The position numbers and the translations under genes were made by a program. Source: Holdemania sp. Marseille-P2844 (GTDB taxonomy: Bacteria; Bacillota_I; Bacilli_A; Erysipelotrichales; Erysipelotrichaceae). From it: DNA of 64,000 bases. Of the stretch, positions 3,693-8,944 are shown piece by piece. The DNA lies in contig NZ_LT635451.1 in the NCBI RefSeq assembly GCF_900120005.1, forward strand, positions 62,001-126,000, read 5' to 3'. Under the pieces are notes generated by a model. That model had not been told where the DNA came from, did no database searches, and worked only from the letters and a program-made list of their open reading frames with translations. Numbering within the stretch: position 1 is the first letter of the stretch; every line of letters begins with the position of its first letter.

Positions 3693-3856
3693 CAGTGGCC
3701 AATCCTACCATATCTAAGACAGTTGTCGCTACCGGCGAGCGTTTTATTGTTACCGTCGAGGTCACATCAAAAATGACCTGGACAGAGCTTAAAAAAGCCA
3801 AGTGGGCGGACATCAAAAAGTACACCTGGGCGCAGATCAAGGGGGTGGTTAAGTAG
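3686..3856 (+). CDS. 56-residue phage protein with three tryptophan octads
   Basis: A short gene reading from ATG 3686 to TAG 3854-3856. Its start overlaps the upstream stop and its stop overlaps the GTG start of the next gene, so it is fully stitched into the operon. The N-terminal half (VVATGERFIVTVEVT) resembles the final strand of the Ig-like protein upstream. The C-terminal half is a repeat of three eight-residue units, TWTELKKA, KWADIKKY and TWAQIKGV, giving an amphipathic basic tail with a tryptophan every eight residues. Such tails could sit on a membrane or on a surface polymer, but that is speculation. Confidence that it is coding is high because of the two coupled junctions and the in-frame repeat. 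Confidence 0.65.
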   Translation: MLTVANPTISKTVVATGERFIVTVEVTSKMTWTELKKAKWADIKKYTWAQIKGVVK

Positions 3857-4269
3857 TGGCAACCTCAACGGCGCATTACAACCTTGCAAAGCCGGCGGAT
3901 TCTGATTCGGCGGATAATACGGTACTTAACAGCAATTTTGACAAGATCGACACAGCGATTTACAACGCGACGTCAAAATATCTTCCTGGCTTTACGATTG
4001 CGGCGACCGCAACTTGGACACAACTGACCAGCGCGAATGTTTCTAGTCTGGACCCGGACTATCTACAATTCGATCCGACACTTAGCTTTCCGTGGTTCAC
4101 CGATGTGACCTATACTTGCGGGGCGGATGACATCATCGAGCCAATGTTTCCTATCGGCACGGAGGGTATTGGCTTATATTCAAGAATAAGCGCAAACAAG
4201 ATCAGGGTTTATGCAGATTCAAACAAAAATGGCACAGCTTATACGGTGCCACGTTGTAAGAAAGGATGA
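3856..4269 (+). CDS. Phage tail fibre-like protein
   Basis: A 137-residue protein with GTG start at 3856, overlapping the preceding TAG. The N-terminus (HYNLAKPADSDSADNTVLN followed by NFDKID) matches the short fibre-type signature found at the beginning of many tail-fibre and receptor-binding proteins of Gram-positive phages, where this part attaches to the baseplate. The remaining 80 residues resemble the C-terminal module of the protein at 1732-2232. It is short for a fibre and lacks a receptor-binding head of its own. The next five genes could provide variable tips, which would make this an adaptor; that link is inference. Confidence 0.6.
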   Translation: MATSTAHYNLAKPADSDSADNTVLNSNFDKIDTAIYNATSKYLPGFTIAATATWTQLTSANVSSLDPDYLQFDPTLSFPWFTDVTYTCGADDIIEPMFPIGTEGIGLYSRISANKIRVYADSNKNGTAYTVPRCKKG

Positions 4270-4274
4270 AGAAA

Positions 4275-4694
4275 ATGGGATTTTGTAAAAATATACTGCC
4301 TTCCAAAGGAAAAGATCCTTTAAAAACGGAACCAATTGATTGTGTAGTGTCTAATAAGCTCACAGGTGGTGTAACTGTAAGCTATCCTGCCGGTTATTAT
4401 CAGTTTAAACTGGCTTATACTTATCAACAATTTGACCGGTCCAACGAAAATATTTATTATCGAGATTCGGTTGGAACGTTGCATTGGCTTGGAAGCATGG
4501 GAGCGGACGATTATGGTTATTCTCCATACTACTCTATAGCCAATTTAATTTTGGATTTAACTCTTTTCGAAAGCACTGAAACACTAAAAAAGATGACGAG
4601 TTTTTCCCTTGTCTTTGGACCAAATAGCCGTGACCCACATTTTAGTTCTTTTGCTGCCGTAGGACTCAGAAGAGTCGGTGGGGGGGGGGGGTAA
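4275..4694 (+). CDS. FCKNI-family tail protein 1, ends in a G12 tract
   Basis: A 139-residue protein from ATG 4275; the ribosome site AAGGA at 4262-4266 is better spaced to this ATG than to the one at 4266. It opens with the family tag MGFCKNILPSKGK, shared with four following genes, and continues with a beta-rich domain of its own (SYPAGYYQFKLAYTYQQF). The last residues are a glycine run because the gene runs into twelve consecutive G residues at 4680-4691, immediately followed by TAA. Deletion of a single G, or a +1 ribosomal shift, would bypass this stop and continue 28 codons into the next gene in frame. No homologous function is recognised; position suggests tail tip or receptor binding. 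Confidence 0.6.
   Translation: MGFCKNILPSKGKDPLKTEPIDCVVSNKLTGGVTVSYPAGYYQFKLAYTYQQFDRSNENIYYRDSVGTLHWLGSMGADDYGYSPYYSIANLILDLTLFESTETLKKMTSFSLVFGPNSRDPHFSSFAAVGLRRVGGGGG
4680..4691 (+). repeat. Homopolymeric G12 tract at a gene end
   Basis: Twelve uninterrupted G residues directly before the TAA stop of the gene at 4275. Tracts this long are prone to slipped-strand changes and are a classic substrate of phase variation. With one G fewer the frame runs through the spacer and joins ATG 4777 in frame; with one G more it stops after about 33 codons. Confidence 0.85.
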
Positions 4695-4719
4695 TTTTAT
4701 CCCTCTATTCTTTAAAAAA

Positions 4720-4769
4720 GGCTTTGTTAAGCCATTTTATGAATGTTTGTATCACCTCGGGAAGAGGTG
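4720..4769 (+). promoter_or_regulatory. Spacer with two hairpins; the second sequesters the ribosome site
   Basis: The spacer between the G12 tract and ATG 4777 holds a 5-bp stem GGCTT/AAGCC with loop TGTT (4720-4733) and then a 6-bp stem CACCTC/GAGGTG with loop GGGAA (4753-4769). The second stem contains the Shine-Dalgarno GAGGTGG of the next gene, so initiation there should be weak unless ribosomes or polymerase passing from upstream open it. The same geometry occurs in the second G-tract spacer at 6120-6169. Confidence 0.5.
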
Positions 4770-4776
4770 GAAACTG

Positions 4777-5703
4777 ATGGGATTCTGTAAAAACATCTTG
4801 CCAAATGGATCTGGTGGTAATCCATTCCCTGGATATAAGCTGAAAACAGGTGTTTTGTGTAGCCTGCCACAAGCGAATCAGAGTAATACTGCACGCAGAA
4901 GCTTAGCTATCCCAGCTAATTGTATCCCAATTTGCATTAAGTGTTCTGGTACTTGGAATTGTTATTCTGGTAAAGGAGAAACTTCTAGTCTTGGTATTTC
5001 TATCTCCGATAACAATGGAAAATCGTTATTAAATGTAAACAAAAATTCAGGCCCACAATGGATGAATATTAGTAATGGTTTTTATCTCTATCCTTTGGGA
5101 GCGTATGATAATGATGTTGAAGCGGCTTCGACGATTAACCGGATCGACATTAATACTTGGGGTAATGGCGGCATGTATGACGCAACTACCGGGAAAATAG
5201 AAGTGACAGCTTGGCTTGAGAAGACAGGCGCAGGTGGAGCTAAGCCGGTTAAACCAAAAGAGTATAAGCGACTCTATCTATATAAAGATGGGGATCAATG
5301 CACAGACGTTACAGGAGGATGGACTTTCACGAAACCAGCATCTCCAGGAGGAAATTACACTTCGTCTTTTAATAAAGATGGTTGTTTATATTGTGGAGGT
5401 CAAAACACAGGTGACGCCAGGTTTAAAACTGTAAATTCGATAAATATGTCCGATTATGATCGGCTAATGATCGAATTTTATCATAACGGAAGCGCTGCTG
5501 ACGCCAATACACAATTTGGCCTTACTAATGGTGGAGTAAGTGTTGTGAAAATGGCTTTAGCTCAGTCTTTTGTTAATAAAATTACTTTAATGGGAACTAG
5601 TGATATGGTTAGCGATGTAATTGATCTGTGGTTGTGGACTGGTGGATATTCAACTACTCATCTCTATATCAAGCGAGTATGGCTCGAAACGGTAGGTGAA
5701 TGA
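4777..5703 (+). CDS. FCKNI-family tail protein 2 (two-domain)
   Basis: A 308-residue protein from ATG 4777, chosen because it starts with the family tag MGFCKNILPNGSGG and follows GAGGTGG at 4764-4770. The same frame is open back to the G12 tract, giving a hydrophobic linker (beginning NFIPLFFKKGF) if the upstream frame shifts. Two beta-rich domains follow: about 15-150, cysteine-rich (AIPANCIPICIKCSGTW), and about 160-308 (KRLYLYKDGDQCTDVTGGW), which has the look of a lectin-like jelly roll. It is the largest of the five family members. Receptor binding or surface adhesion is inferred from its place before the lysis genes. Its stop at 5701-5703 lies one base before the next ATG. Confidence 0.6.
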   Translation: MGFCKNILPNGSGGNPFPGYKLKTGVLCSLPQANQSNTARRSLAIPANCIPICIKCSGTWNCYSGKGETSSLGISISDNNGKSLLNVNKNSGPQWMNISNGFYLYPLGAYDNDVEAASTINRIDINTWGNGGMYDATTGKIEVTAWLEKTGAGGAKPVKPKEYKRLYLYKDGDQCTDVTGGWTFTKPASPGGNYTSSFNKDGCLYCGGQNTGDARFKTVNSINMSDYDRLMIEFYHNGSAADANTQFGLTNGGVSVVKMALAQSFVNKITLMGTSDMVSDVIDLWLWTGGYSTTHLYIKRVWLETVGE

Positions 5704-5704
5704 T

Positions 5705-6112
5705 ATGAATTTTTGTAAAAATATCGTACACCCTGGAAAAAAAGAAATTCCTGAATTTGAATGGGTTCAGATTGCTGAAAATTTAAAATTCAGTAATACG
5801 ACTTGTAAAGTTCCTAAAACTCCTGGTGTCTTTTTATACAAGATAAGCAGACTGGGAATGGGTGATAGCGCTGGTGGAAAGCACACAGAAATCATGAGTC
5901 CTGATGGATCTAAGCAAATGACGATCGTAAATAACAATGGTGGAACTACAGGGTTAGATGCGCGAACGCTGAATCACATTATTGACCTCCGTGAACTTGG
6001 CGACGAAACGGTATTTTCTGATAGTCTGTTTATCAAAACGATTTCTAAATCTTGCACAGTTGATTCGATTTTTGAATGTAAGAATGCCTTGAAAAAATTC
6101 GGGGGGGGGTAA
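5705..6112 (+). CDS. FCKNI-family tail protein 3, ends in a G9 tract
   Basis: A 135-residue protein starting at ATG 5705, one base after the preceding stop, with GGTAGGTGA just upstream. It opens MNFCKNIVHPGKK and then has its own beta-rich domain (GVFLYKISRLGMGDSAGG). It ends with three glycines read from nine G residues at 6101-6109, then TAA. Exactly as in the first tract, loss of one G would place the following 22 codons and ATG 6177 in the same frame, giving a fusion with protein 4. Apart from the tag it shares little visible similarity with its siblings. A GTG at 5696 is in frame but less likely to be the start. Confidence 0.6.
   Translation: MNFCKNIVHPGKKEIPEFEWVQIAENLKFSNTTCKVPKTPGVFLYKISRLGMGDSAGGKHTEIMSPDGSKQMTIVNNNGGTTGLDARTLNHIIDLRELGDETVFSDSLFIKTISKSCTVDSIFECKNALKKFGGG
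6101..6109 (+). repeat. Homopolymeric G9 tract at a gene end
   Basis: Nine G residues directly before the TAA of the gene at 5705, the second such tract in 1.5 kb and again at the 3' end of an FCKNI-family gene. The relative frame to the downstream gene is the same as for the G12 tract: one G fewer makes a fusion. Confidence 0.8.
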
Positions 6113-6119
6113 GAAATCC

Positions 6120-6169
6120 CCTTTATTTAAAGGATTTTTTACCATTTTTCGTCACTTTGAAACGAGGTG
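6120..6169 (+). promoter_or_regulatory. Second spacer with paired hairpins and masked ribosome site
   Basis: A 5-bp stem CCTTT/AAAGG with loop ATTT (6120-6133, followed by six T) and a 6-bp stem CACTTT/GAGGTG with loop GAAAC (6153-6169). In RNA the second stem forms with two G-U pairs where the first spacer has G-C pairs, while the GAGGTGG ribosome site for ATG 6177 stays the same. Conserved geometry with compensating or wobble changes favours a functional RNA structure over chance. The first stem plus T run could also act as a weak terminator. Confidence 0.5.
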
Positions 6170-6176
6170 GCGTAAG

Positions 6177-6560
6177 ATGAATTTCTGCAAAAATATTTTG
6201 CCGAATGGGAGCAAAGCTATTGTAAAATCTTATTCCTTCAGCACTTGCGGAGGTACTACTTTCGACACCGGGATATTTAATCCAACGGATTTAAAAAATT
6301 TCAGATTTGTTGGCTTCTGCGGCTGGGCTGGTCAAACTGCGACTTACCATCTCTACTTGTCTTCAGATGGTGGTAAAACCTATGAGCTATATAAGTCGGG
6401 AGCACCGAGTGGCTGGCAAGGATCAACGCCAGCGCCTCTTGTTTGGGCGTTTGATAAATACAGTAAAAAAATCAATCGCATAAAGATTACGACAAGCTGC
6501 ACGGACAGCCGAGTCACCAGCTGCTGCACATTAAGCTGGTTAGATAAGGCGGGTGTTTAA
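6177..6560 (+). CDS. FCKNI-family tail protein 4
   Basis: A 127-residue protein from ATG 6177 after GAGGTGG (6164-6170). It starts MNFCKNILPNGSKA, nearly identical in its first twelve residues to protein 2, then has a domain with an exposed-tryptophan pattern (GFCGWAGQTATYHLYLSSDG, PSGWQGSTPAPLVWAFDKY) and a cysteine-rich end. The pattern L-Y-L-S-S-D-G-G-K-T-Y-E-L is reminiscent of discoidin or carbohydrate-binding beta-sandwiches, but the match is loose. The frame is open upstream through the spacer as far as the G9 tract. Its stop is followed after one base by the next ATG. Confidence 0.55.
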   Translation: MNFCKNILPNGSKAIVKSYSFSTCGGTTFDTGIFNPTDLKNFRFVGFCGWAGQTATYHLYLSSDGGKTYELYKSGAPSGWQGSTPAPLVWAFDKYSKKINRIKITTSCTDSRVTSCCTLSWLDKAGV

Positions 6561-6561
6561 G

Positions 6562-6945
6562 ATGCCTAGTTTCAGCCGCAATATTCTTAATACCGCAGGT
6601 AAGCGCAAAGTGGGAAACAAAAGCATATCCGCCCAAGCCAACACGCAGACAAGATCGTCTACCCTAGATTTAGGCGAGCCCAAAAATATCTTATCAATCG
6701 TTAATATCTACGAGTGGTATTGGGGGTCGGGAGGCGTAAACGGGACTGTTCACATCAGAACAGAGGTTTCAAACGATCAATCGACATGGATTAATATATT
6801 TGAGACCGCCTCTTACCAATATAAAGATAGTACCTATCAGCAAACCACAAAAATAAATATTGGTAAATATCGATACGTCAGAGTTACAGGTTGGTGCGAT
6901 CGCGAAGCTTATCGGGTAGAAGCCAATGTAACTTATGAAGAATAG
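6562..6945 (+). CDS. FCKNI-family tail protein 5, divergent tag, discoidin-like
   Basis: A 127-residue protein starting at ATG 6562 directly after the stop of protein 4. Its tag is MPSFSRNILNTAGKRK, the same pattern as its siblings but with Ser in place of Cys and Arg in place of Lys. The body (NILSIVNIYEWYWGSGGVNG, then HIRTEVSNDQSTWINIFET and IGKYRYVRVTGW) follows the layout of F5/8-type C discoidin domains, which bind carbohydrates or lipids at surfaces. It is the last structural gene before the endolysin. Cell-surface recognition is inferred from that fold-like pattern. Confidence 0.6.
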   Translation: MPSFSRNILNTAGKRKVGNKSISAQANTQTRSSTLDLGEPKNILSIVNIYEWYWGSGGVNGTVHIRTEVSNDQSTWINIFETASYQYKDSTYQQTTKINIGKYRYVRVTGWCDREAYRVEANVTYEE

Positions 6946-6959
6946 AGAGGAGTGATCTT

Positions 6960-8363
6960 ATGGACTACACATCGCCTGCTGACCTCTGTCGGTGGGCAGA
7001 GCAGCAGCTCAACCGTAAGACAGTTTACAAGCTCGGCGGTATCGGCCGCTATGACGTGTCTGGCCACCGGGTGTTTGACTGCGTCGGCCTGATCAAGTGC
7101 TTTTTGTGGCACGACTACGGCCCGGGCAATACCAGCTACTACGGTAAGACGGCGCCGGACATCAACGCCGATCAGATGTACGCCCGGGCGACCGACAAGG
7201 GCCCGATCAGCACGTTCCCGGACATCCCGGGGCTGATGGTCTGGCAGCCAGGTCATATCGGGATCTACATCGGCAATGGTCAGGTTATCGAGGCGACGGC
7301 TAAGCGATGGGGATCCGTCGGCGGCTGCGTCGTCAAGTCACAATTTACCAACAAGTCCGCAGCGATGTACCGCGGGACATGGACACACTGGCTCAGGTGT
7401 CCTTTTTTAATTTACGAGGAGGGATCTAAGATGTATTTAAAACCAGGGTATCAGAGTATTGCCTGGCAAGGACAGATGATCCACGTTTACAAGCGTAAGG
7501 CTGATCAGGATATTGGCCTGCTGCAGTTGCCAGGGCAAGTAACCAAAACGATAGATAAAATCGACGATGACCACATTCATTACTGCAAGGTTAACTGGCC
7601 ATTTTTCAACAATCATCCAGATACTAAAGAGTACGGTATTACCTATGGACGTAATCAAGGATTTACCAGGGATGATCGGCCGGCACAAAAAGAGTATCAC
7701 AGCTTAATCATTACCAAAGACGGAAAATGGCTGAAAGGTGATTTTGAAAGCTGGGAATACCCGAAAGATGAGATCAAACTCGGTACTATGTATGCGGTTT
7801 GCCTACTGCATGAAGGAAAAGACGAAGCGGACATCTCATCTGCCTGCGGGAATGTTAAATACACTGCAGCCAATACCCAGACTATTTTGATGGGAAACAA
7901 AGATGAGATCGTTTTTGCGGTTGTATCGGGTAAGCTCGATGGGACAGCTTGCCGTCAGTTTGCTAAAGCGTACGGGATGACTGAGTGCTATCTGGGCGAT
8001 AGTGGAGGCAGCTCGCAGATGATCGTTGATGGTGTTAAAAAGGTGTATACAGGCAGACCCTTAACGGCGGCGCTGACGTTTTACAAGATCGATGCACAGC
8101 CAGATCCGGATCCAGATGTGCCTGTAATCCCAACAGGCCAGACGATGGTCTTTAAATGCACTAAAGCCAGCACATCAAAAGGGTATCCGCTGAGGTCATC
8201 AGCGCCATCAGGAGCAATCGTAAGCTATTTACAGCCGGGCGAAAACGTCAAGGTGGTCGATATTCAAAACAAGGGCAAAAATCAGTATACGTCTGCTGCA
8301 GAGCCGTGGTGCTTGACTGGGGACGGCCTGTGGTTTGCTTTTGATAAAGATTATTTTGAGTAG
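6960..8363 (+). CDS. Prophage endolysin: NlpC/P60 + NAGPA-like + SH3-like
   Basis: A 467-residue protein starting at ATG 6960 after AGAGGAG. Residues 1-150 are an NlpC/P60 (CHAP-like) peptidase: catalytic Cys in VFDCVGLIKCF, His in WQPGHIGIYIGNG. Such domains cut peptide bonds in peptidoglycan. Residues about 200-385 match the phosphodiester glycosidase family (NAGPA, PF09992): VNWPFFNN, TILMGNKDEIVFAVVSGKLD and YLGDSGGSSQMIVDG. The last 75 residues look like a cell-wall-binding SH3 domain (KGYPLRSSAPSGAIVSYL, GDGLWFAF). NlpC/P60 plus NAGPA is an unusual endolysin pairing. A very strong internal ribosome site and ATG sit exactly at the domain border (7416-7433), so a 310-residue C-terminal form is probably also made. 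No signal peptide is seen, so release depends on the holin downstream. Confidence 0.85.
   Translation: MDYTSPADLCRWAEQQLNRKTVYKLGGIGRYDVSGHRVFDCVGLIKCFLWHDYGPGNTSYYGKTAPDINADQMYARATDKGPISTFPDIPGLMVWQPGHIGIYIGNGQVIEATAKRWGSVGGCVVKSQFTNKSAAMYRGTWTHWLRCPFLIYEEGSKMYLKPGYQSIAWQGQMIHVYKRKADQDIGLLQLPGQVTKTIDKIDDDHIHYCKVNWPFFNNHPDTKEYGITYGRNQGFTRDDRPAQKEYHSLIITKDGKWLKGDFESWEYPKDEIKLGTMYAVCLLHEGKDEADISSACGNVKYTAANTQTILMGNKDEIVFAVVSGKLDGTACRQFAKAYGMTECYLGDSGGSSQMIVDGVKKVYTGRPLTAALTFYKIDAQPDPDPDVPVIPTGQTMVFKCTKASTSKGYPLRSSAPSGAIVSYLQPGENVKVVDIQNKGKNQYTSAAEPWCLTGDGLWFAFDKDYFE
7416..7433 (+). promoter_or_regulatory. Internal ribosome site and start inside the endolysin gene
   Basis: GAGGAGGG at 7416-7423, seven bases before an in-frame ATG at 7431 (codon 158 of the endolysin). 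It is the best Shine-Dalgarno in the neighbourhood and lies in the linker between the peptidase and the NAGPA-like domain. Several Clostridium and Enterococcus endolysins are known to use such internal starts to make a second, wall-binding subunit. Confidence 0.65.
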
Positions 8364-8686: not shown

Positions 8687-8944
8687 ATGGAAATCACAGA
8701 AATTATCACTCAGTTCTTAATGCCACTAGTGCTGGCCGCATGTTATGCAATCGGCGCTGCGCTTAAATCTACGGAGCGCTATCCAAACAAATACATCCCG
8801 GCCACTATGCTGCTTATTGGTGCAGTGCTTGCACCTTTGGCCACCGGCGACTGGTCAGCGCAGACCATCATGATCGGCGCGATCTCCGGATGGGCGTCTA
8901 CGGGTCTCAACCAGACAATCAAGCAGCTGTCCAATAAGGAGTAA
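8687..8944 (+). CDS. Phage holin
   Basis: An 85-residue membrane protein from ATG 8687 after AGAGGAGG. It has hydrophobic segments at about 9-26 (LMPLVLAACYAIGAAL), 38-52 (PATMLLIGAVLAPLA) and 58-72 (AQTIMIGAISGWAST) and a short charged C-terminal tail, the normal plan of small phage holins. Holins assemble in the cytoplasmic membrane and open it at the end of the lytic cycle so that the endolysin reaches the wall. The gene lies between endolysin and a coiled-coil membrane protein, the usual lysis cassette. The exact holin family cannot be fixed from sequence reading alone. Confidence 0.75.
   Translation: MEITEIITQFLMPLVLAACYAIGAALKSTERYPNKYIPATMLLIGAVLAPLATGDWSAQTIMIGAISGWASTGLNQTIKQLSNKE

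Follow-up and report, generated by a model that had tools for sequence, protein, structure and literature searches.

Homopolymeric tracts at the ends of tandem prophage tail genes in Holdemania are candidate switches between neighbouring genes

The window, i.e. the whole 64,000-nucleotide stretch of Holdemania sp. Marseille-P2844 DNA that was analysed, contains a tandem array of small genes located between a phage tail module and a gene for an NlpC/P60-like protein. The array genes have a common start, MxFCKNILP, and are variable in the remainder. Two of the genes end in a run of G followed by a stop codon, and the inner junctions at 4777/5705 and 6177/6562 have no tract. The features of the array are as follows:

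4275..4694, + strand, array gene 1, currently in the short form (139 aa), ending ...GLRRVGGGGG, with relatives in prophages L017 and L031
4680..4691, + strand, G12 tract, preceded by GGT at 4677-4679
4692..4694, + strand, TAA ending the short form of array gene 1 (tract length 0 mod 3)
4692..4777, + strand, extended-frame tail of array gene 1 (G10 or G13), VILSLYSLKKALLSHFMNVCITSGRGGN, with TGA 4775-4777 overlapping ATG 4777
4752..4770, + strand, predicted hairpin TCACCTC-GGGAA-GAGGTGG, which pairs the ribosome-binding site of the next gene (4764-4769) with a probability of 0.99, reached by 1% of shuffles
4777..5703, + strand, array gene 2, 308 aa, two domains, 3' end without a tract
5705..6112, + strand, array gene 3, currently in the short form (135 aa), ending ...KKFGGG
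6101..6109, + strand, G9 tract ending array gene 3, with TAA next and the layout seen at G12
6110..6180, + strand, short stop of array gene 3 (TAA 6110-6112) and its extended tail (G10), VRNPLYLKDFLPFFVTLKRGGVR, with TGA 6178-6180 overlapping ATG 6177
6150..6172, + strand, predicted hairpin pairing the ribosome-binding site (6164-6169) that precedes array gene 4, probability 1.00, reached by 1-1.5% of shuffles
6177..6560, + strand, array gene 4, 127 aa, end without a tract
6562..6945, + strand, array gene 5, the last in the array, without a tract, with a weak F5/8 type C match

An earlier note on this DNA described gene 4275 as a 139-residue frame ending with GGT, twelve G, and TAA, which is exact (positions 4677-4694); a second in-frame ATG for this gene is present at 4266, where it overlaps the stop of the preceding gene. 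The same note stated that loss of one G leaves a frame open for 28 codons into ATG 4777. This was confirmed: in the G11 frame, the stretch 4692..4777 becomes a fusion linker, NFIPLFFKKGFVKPFYECLYHLGKRWKL, and the reading ...GGGGNFIPLFFKKGFVKPFYECLYHLGKRWKL-MGFCKNILP... passes through the 28-codon linker without a stop, in frame with ATG 4777. At the tract of array gene 3, the G8 or G11 frame leads to fusion with the gene at 6177. The placement of the tract as a frame switch, claimed in the earlier note, is thus supported. The analysis adds what happens in the remaining registers and a second tract, at 6101-6109.

The number of long G runs in the window is higher than chance would yield. In dinucleotide shuffles, 0.38 G9 matches are expected per window, and the observed count, in which overlapping matches inside one run were counted separately, was reached by no shuffle. 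There are just 12 runs of G8 or longer in the 3.68 Mb genome, and four of these 12 form the 3' ends of short tail genes, across three prophages (G12 and G9 in the window, G10 in prophage L011, and G8 in prophage L017). Runs of G9 were absent from two congener genomes (3.8-3.9 Mb). Among Gly codons of the neighbouring genes, GGG is scarce (26 of 182), and a run of GGG codons is therefore not a matter of codon bias. The IMG copy of the genome, which may be the same assembly, has identical tract lengths. Exact lengths may still carry some assembly error, but the layout is repeated in records of different projects.

Long G runs were also observed at other sites. In a surface-polysaccharide cluster of the same host (L014; G000:C14:478468, 481774), runs are located at 5469-5478 and 8775-8782. 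The first, G10, breaks a glycosyltransferase-61 gene, which would read on with G9; the second, G8, is the end of an FrhB-like gene and adjoins the next start. Within the host's own genome and one congener, runs of G9-G10 (L019, 5182-5190; L053 and L054, near 1500) are positioned directly 5' of a likely ribosome-binding site and start, where they could tune initiation.

The phage group of the window comprises five tracts: W12 and W9 of the window, L011, L017, and L031, the last from a prophage of another strain. The relatives of gene 4275 in L017 and L031 are 63% and 62% identical to it, respectively, and all three orthologues end with GLRRV and glycines. A comparison of related prophages had been suggested in the earlier note, and the orthologue tracts indeed differ, as slipped-strand variation predicts: G12 in the window, G8 in L017, and G10 in L031, one per register, in proteins that at 62-63% identity are not very close relatives. 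The five tracts share three outcomes. In the short register, a stop is met no more than two codons past the tract. In the extended register, a tail of 21-34 residues is followed by a stop at or just past the next start (TGATG, ATGA, or TAATG; in L011 and L017, the stop lies 11 and 17 nt downstream of the A of the ATG). In the third register, the two genes are fused. The complete three-way layout was recovered in 0.7-6% of dinucleotide shuffles per spacer, figures that the partial homology of the five spacers keeps from being simply multiplied. An array gene, IEKYQRFRGNYAKDFF..., is nearly identical in L011 (6941-7441) and L017 (4321-4851), with unlike tract genes in front of it, which points to recent exchange of modules.

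The window genes had no DNA or protein match in phage and plasmid records, scans of GTDB genomes at the family, order, class, and phylum levels revealed nothing outside the host's own genome, and pattern scans with GGGGGGGCGCTTAAA and WLEKIGG returned mostly unrelated genes. Viral contigs were also scanned for a G9 run with GAGGTG and ATG following at the right distance. Most of the 26 stretches obtained look like chance. In two, L096 (gene starts MLDH...) and L117 (MFxLIES...), small genes of the tail region are arrayed in tandem; within each array the genes start alike, and every gene except the last ends in a G run. L096 led to Lactobacillus crispatus phage vB_Lcr_AB1 (MW476490.1, locus L121). 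Three of its array genes bear tracts, G7, C8, and G8; the C8 run reads GGTAACCCCCCCCTAATCC (L121 4920-4960), and its registers are arranged as at the G runs.

This brings the total to 12 tracts, 11 of G and one of C, in three phage lineages, with lengths of G7-G10 and C8 outside the window. In all 12, one frame stops 0-2 codons past the tract (TAA or TAG directly follows in nine of the 11 G tracts), and the stop of the extended frame ends between -1 and +17 nt relative to the ATG of the next gene. Stop-on-start overlap or adjacency is seen in the extended frame only. The present lengths put six tracts in the short register (W12, W9, L017, L117a, L117b, and L121c) and five in the conserved extended frame (L011, L031, L096b, L121a, and L121b); the remaining tract, L096a, is read in a different frame, which likewise terminates at the next ATG. 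The final gene of each array has no tract. Phage phiAQ113, with a single array gene, has neither tract nor tail, and the same is true of P185, whose homologue of AB1 ORF57 ends with ...NIVW and a stop where the AB1 tract starts, with no array gene behind it.

The tails encoded at the 12 tracts are 20-34 residues long, basic, and hydrophobic; in AB1, the tail peptide starts KSLLHTIASMVEYAF.... Profile comparisons indicate that the tail is a natural protein end. PHROG 14460 has 127 positions, and AB1 ORF59, annotated in its short form, covers positions 1-107 (148 bits), while in the extended frame it covers positions 1-127 (187 bits). AB1 ORF57 scores 195 bits against PHROG 11842 with the tail and 166 bits without it, and the profile score of L096a rises from 78 without the tail to 88 in the frame now present and to 95 in the conserved one. 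The profiles of PHROG 14460 and PHROG 11842 thus span the tail, and proteins behind them have this tail, which the annotated short form of AB1 ORF59 lacks. Between different phage groups, the likeness of the tails was not above chance. A role of the tail as a degradation tag was considered and set aside; its last residues are largely dictated by the ribosome-binding site.

The ribosome-binding site downstream of the tract is predicted to be folded in part of the phages. In W12, W9, and L031, the GAGGTG of the next gene is paired with a probability of 0.99-1.00 by a local hairpin, and shuffled upstream sequence matches this pairing in 1.0-1.5% of cases. For L017, shuffles are as high in 2.5% of cases with one size of the folded segment and in 30% with another, and for L011 in at least 10%. 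Taken together, the five starts of the group are more paired than 46 others in these phages (Mann-Whitney p of 0.0003-0.006, depending on segment size). In L096, L117, and L121, sequestration of the site does not stand out from shuffles. A ribosome in the extended register would cross the hairpin and stop on the next start codon, and in the short register it would come off 61-82 bases sooner. With the ribosome-binding site held in the hairpin, the short register should lower and the extended register should raise expression of the next gene in the window's group. Coupled translation is well motivated in this group and only plausible in the others. A search for terminators in the spacer, as in attenuation, revealed only weak matches to the consensus.

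The structure predicted for the product of gene 4275 is beta-rich (pLDDT 74). A fold search returned beta-sandwich matches of middling quality, too weak for a family name, and a weak F5/8 type C match was found for one array gene of L017 as well as for the last array gene of the window. We infer that the array products are likely to be receptor-binding proteins.

We propose, with a probability of roughly 0.6, that the tract acts as a contingency (phase-variation) switch at the junction of adjacent genes in a tandem array encoding small tail proteins. As at contingency loci, a run of at least seven bases is found at a coding end, a one-base change gives a defined product, and tract lengths differ. 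Replication slippage would change the length of the tract; it is the simplest source of such change, and we infer that it operates in vivo. In the first register, translation would stop right after the glycine run, and the short form would be made. In the second, a tail of 20-34 residues would be added, and termination at the next start would allow coupled re-initiation there, with the hairpin acting as described above. In the third register, which is open in the window's group only, two genes would be fused. A phage population would then hold mixed sets of tail proteins, which may affect host range. Against the switch stand the intact mutS gene of the host, the lack of a hairpin effect in L096, L117, and L121, the unlikeness of the tails between phage groups, the flat codon-position differences given below, and the tract-free junctions inside the same arrays.

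The poly-G phase variation of Campylobacter, Neisseria, and Helicobacter is similar in that a coding G run is involved, gain or loss of a base alters the product, and relatives differ in length. Those loci are, however, bacterial genes, while here the tract ends tandem phage tail genes, in one case as a run of C, and its register also sets the position of the translation stop relative to the next start. Phage stocks with mixed tail proteins are known from the invertible tail-fibre segments of Mu and P1 and from the retroelement diversification of Bordetella phage. The outcome proposed here is the same, but gain or loss of a base suffices, and neither a recombinase nor a reverse transcriptase is needed. 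In phage lambda, the tail assembly chaperone is made as two products of a tail gene, gpG and gpGT, by a ribosomal slip at a set register; at the tracts described here two products would likewise result from a frame change, but the register drifts with tract length. According to PMC8295292, the small RNA RepG reads a G-repeat in the untranslated leader of Helicobacter tlpB, and the length of the repeat tunes expression, also of a co-transcribed gene; the resemblance lies in tuning by G-run length, and the difference in that the tract here is translated and sets the frame. Searches of the open-access literature for tail-gene phase variation and homopolymers yielded only variation of bacterial surface genes or unrelated work.

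The tracts might instead be a by-product of array evolution, with glycine-rich linkers at domain ends turning into slipping G runs and spacers being remnants of longer genes. The arrays are modular and fast-changing, which fits such an origin, and array gene 2 has a linker, GAGGAKPVKPKEYKR, between its two domains, the first of which ends in GAGG. This first domain resembles a complete protein elsewhere (L046, 45%), so that array domains are also joined by other means. Purifying selection on tail residues was not detected either: differences between the L011 and L017 spacers are flat over codon positions (7/12/12). On the other hand, the C8 tract of AB1 encodes proline (C7 would give the immediate stop and C8 gives the extended form) with the register layout unchanged, which argues that a frame switch and not a polyglycine linker is kept. 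The combination of a short stop and a stop-on-start is present in 11/11 spacers, in unrelated phages, versus 4-21% of shuffles per spacer; multiplying the shuffle chances, with each clearly separate junction represented by a single tract, gives a rough figure of about one in a million. The cassette is also absent where no array gene follows, and GGG is a rare Gly codon here. We consider a by-product unlikely.

Slippage of the ribosome or of RNA polymerase at the G run, programmed or not, could yield both forms from one DNA. Homopolymers favour both kinds of slippage, and a stop codon immediately following the run is reminiscent of known +1 frameshift sites. A programmed site, however, needs a fixed register, and the present registers are spread over three, even among orthologues, which makes a fixed programmed frameshift unlikely and the explanation as a whole improbable. 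Transcriptional slippage on G runs is possible as an additional source of mixed products.

The earlier note saw the tract mainly as a toggle that yields either a stand-alone protein or a fusion of the two genes. One part of this holds, since the fusion junction is in frame and stop-free in all five tracts of the window's group, but it is just one of three registers. The fusion frame is closed in L096b, L117a, L117b, L121a, and L121c, that is, in Lactobacillus-type phages and in L117, and L096a is not fused. None of the 12 tracts is now in the fusion register, and no natural fused relative was found. Fusion as the main purpose of the tract is thus very doubtful. As a candidate for the conserved frame, the fusion frame had fitted the first five tracts; it was dropped, being closed in L096, L117, and L121. 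It is just as doubtful that the main function of tract and flank is to offer a block of homology at which recombination can reshuffle the array genes, as suggested by direct repeats in the window (gene starts, 28 nt in three copies; tract plus flank, 27 nt in two, the G9 copy matching 4683-4709) and by the little-changed gene next to differing tract genes in L011 and L017, because the register layout of stops and starts and the poly-C case are left unexplained. Inverted repeats within 3800-7000 are weak only.

The switch between neighbouring genes may have a wider form, which we put forward tentatively and with the odds somewhat against it: homopolymer, stop, tail peptide, and next start would make up a general cassette between tandem receptor-binding genes in unrelated Gram-positive phages, slippage would set the reach of the array by coupled translation, and the result would be a host-range switch without a recombinase, matched by the poly-G of host surface-sugar genes.

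Annotation shows such tail proteins in one arbitrary state of the tract. Phage vB_Lcr_AB1 has already been isolated, so the switch is testable at once. Switches of phage host range are usually ascribed to mutation, inversion segments, or retroelements; if the proposed mechanism is true, a homopolymer switch in tail genes would be a simple route to mixed phage stocks.
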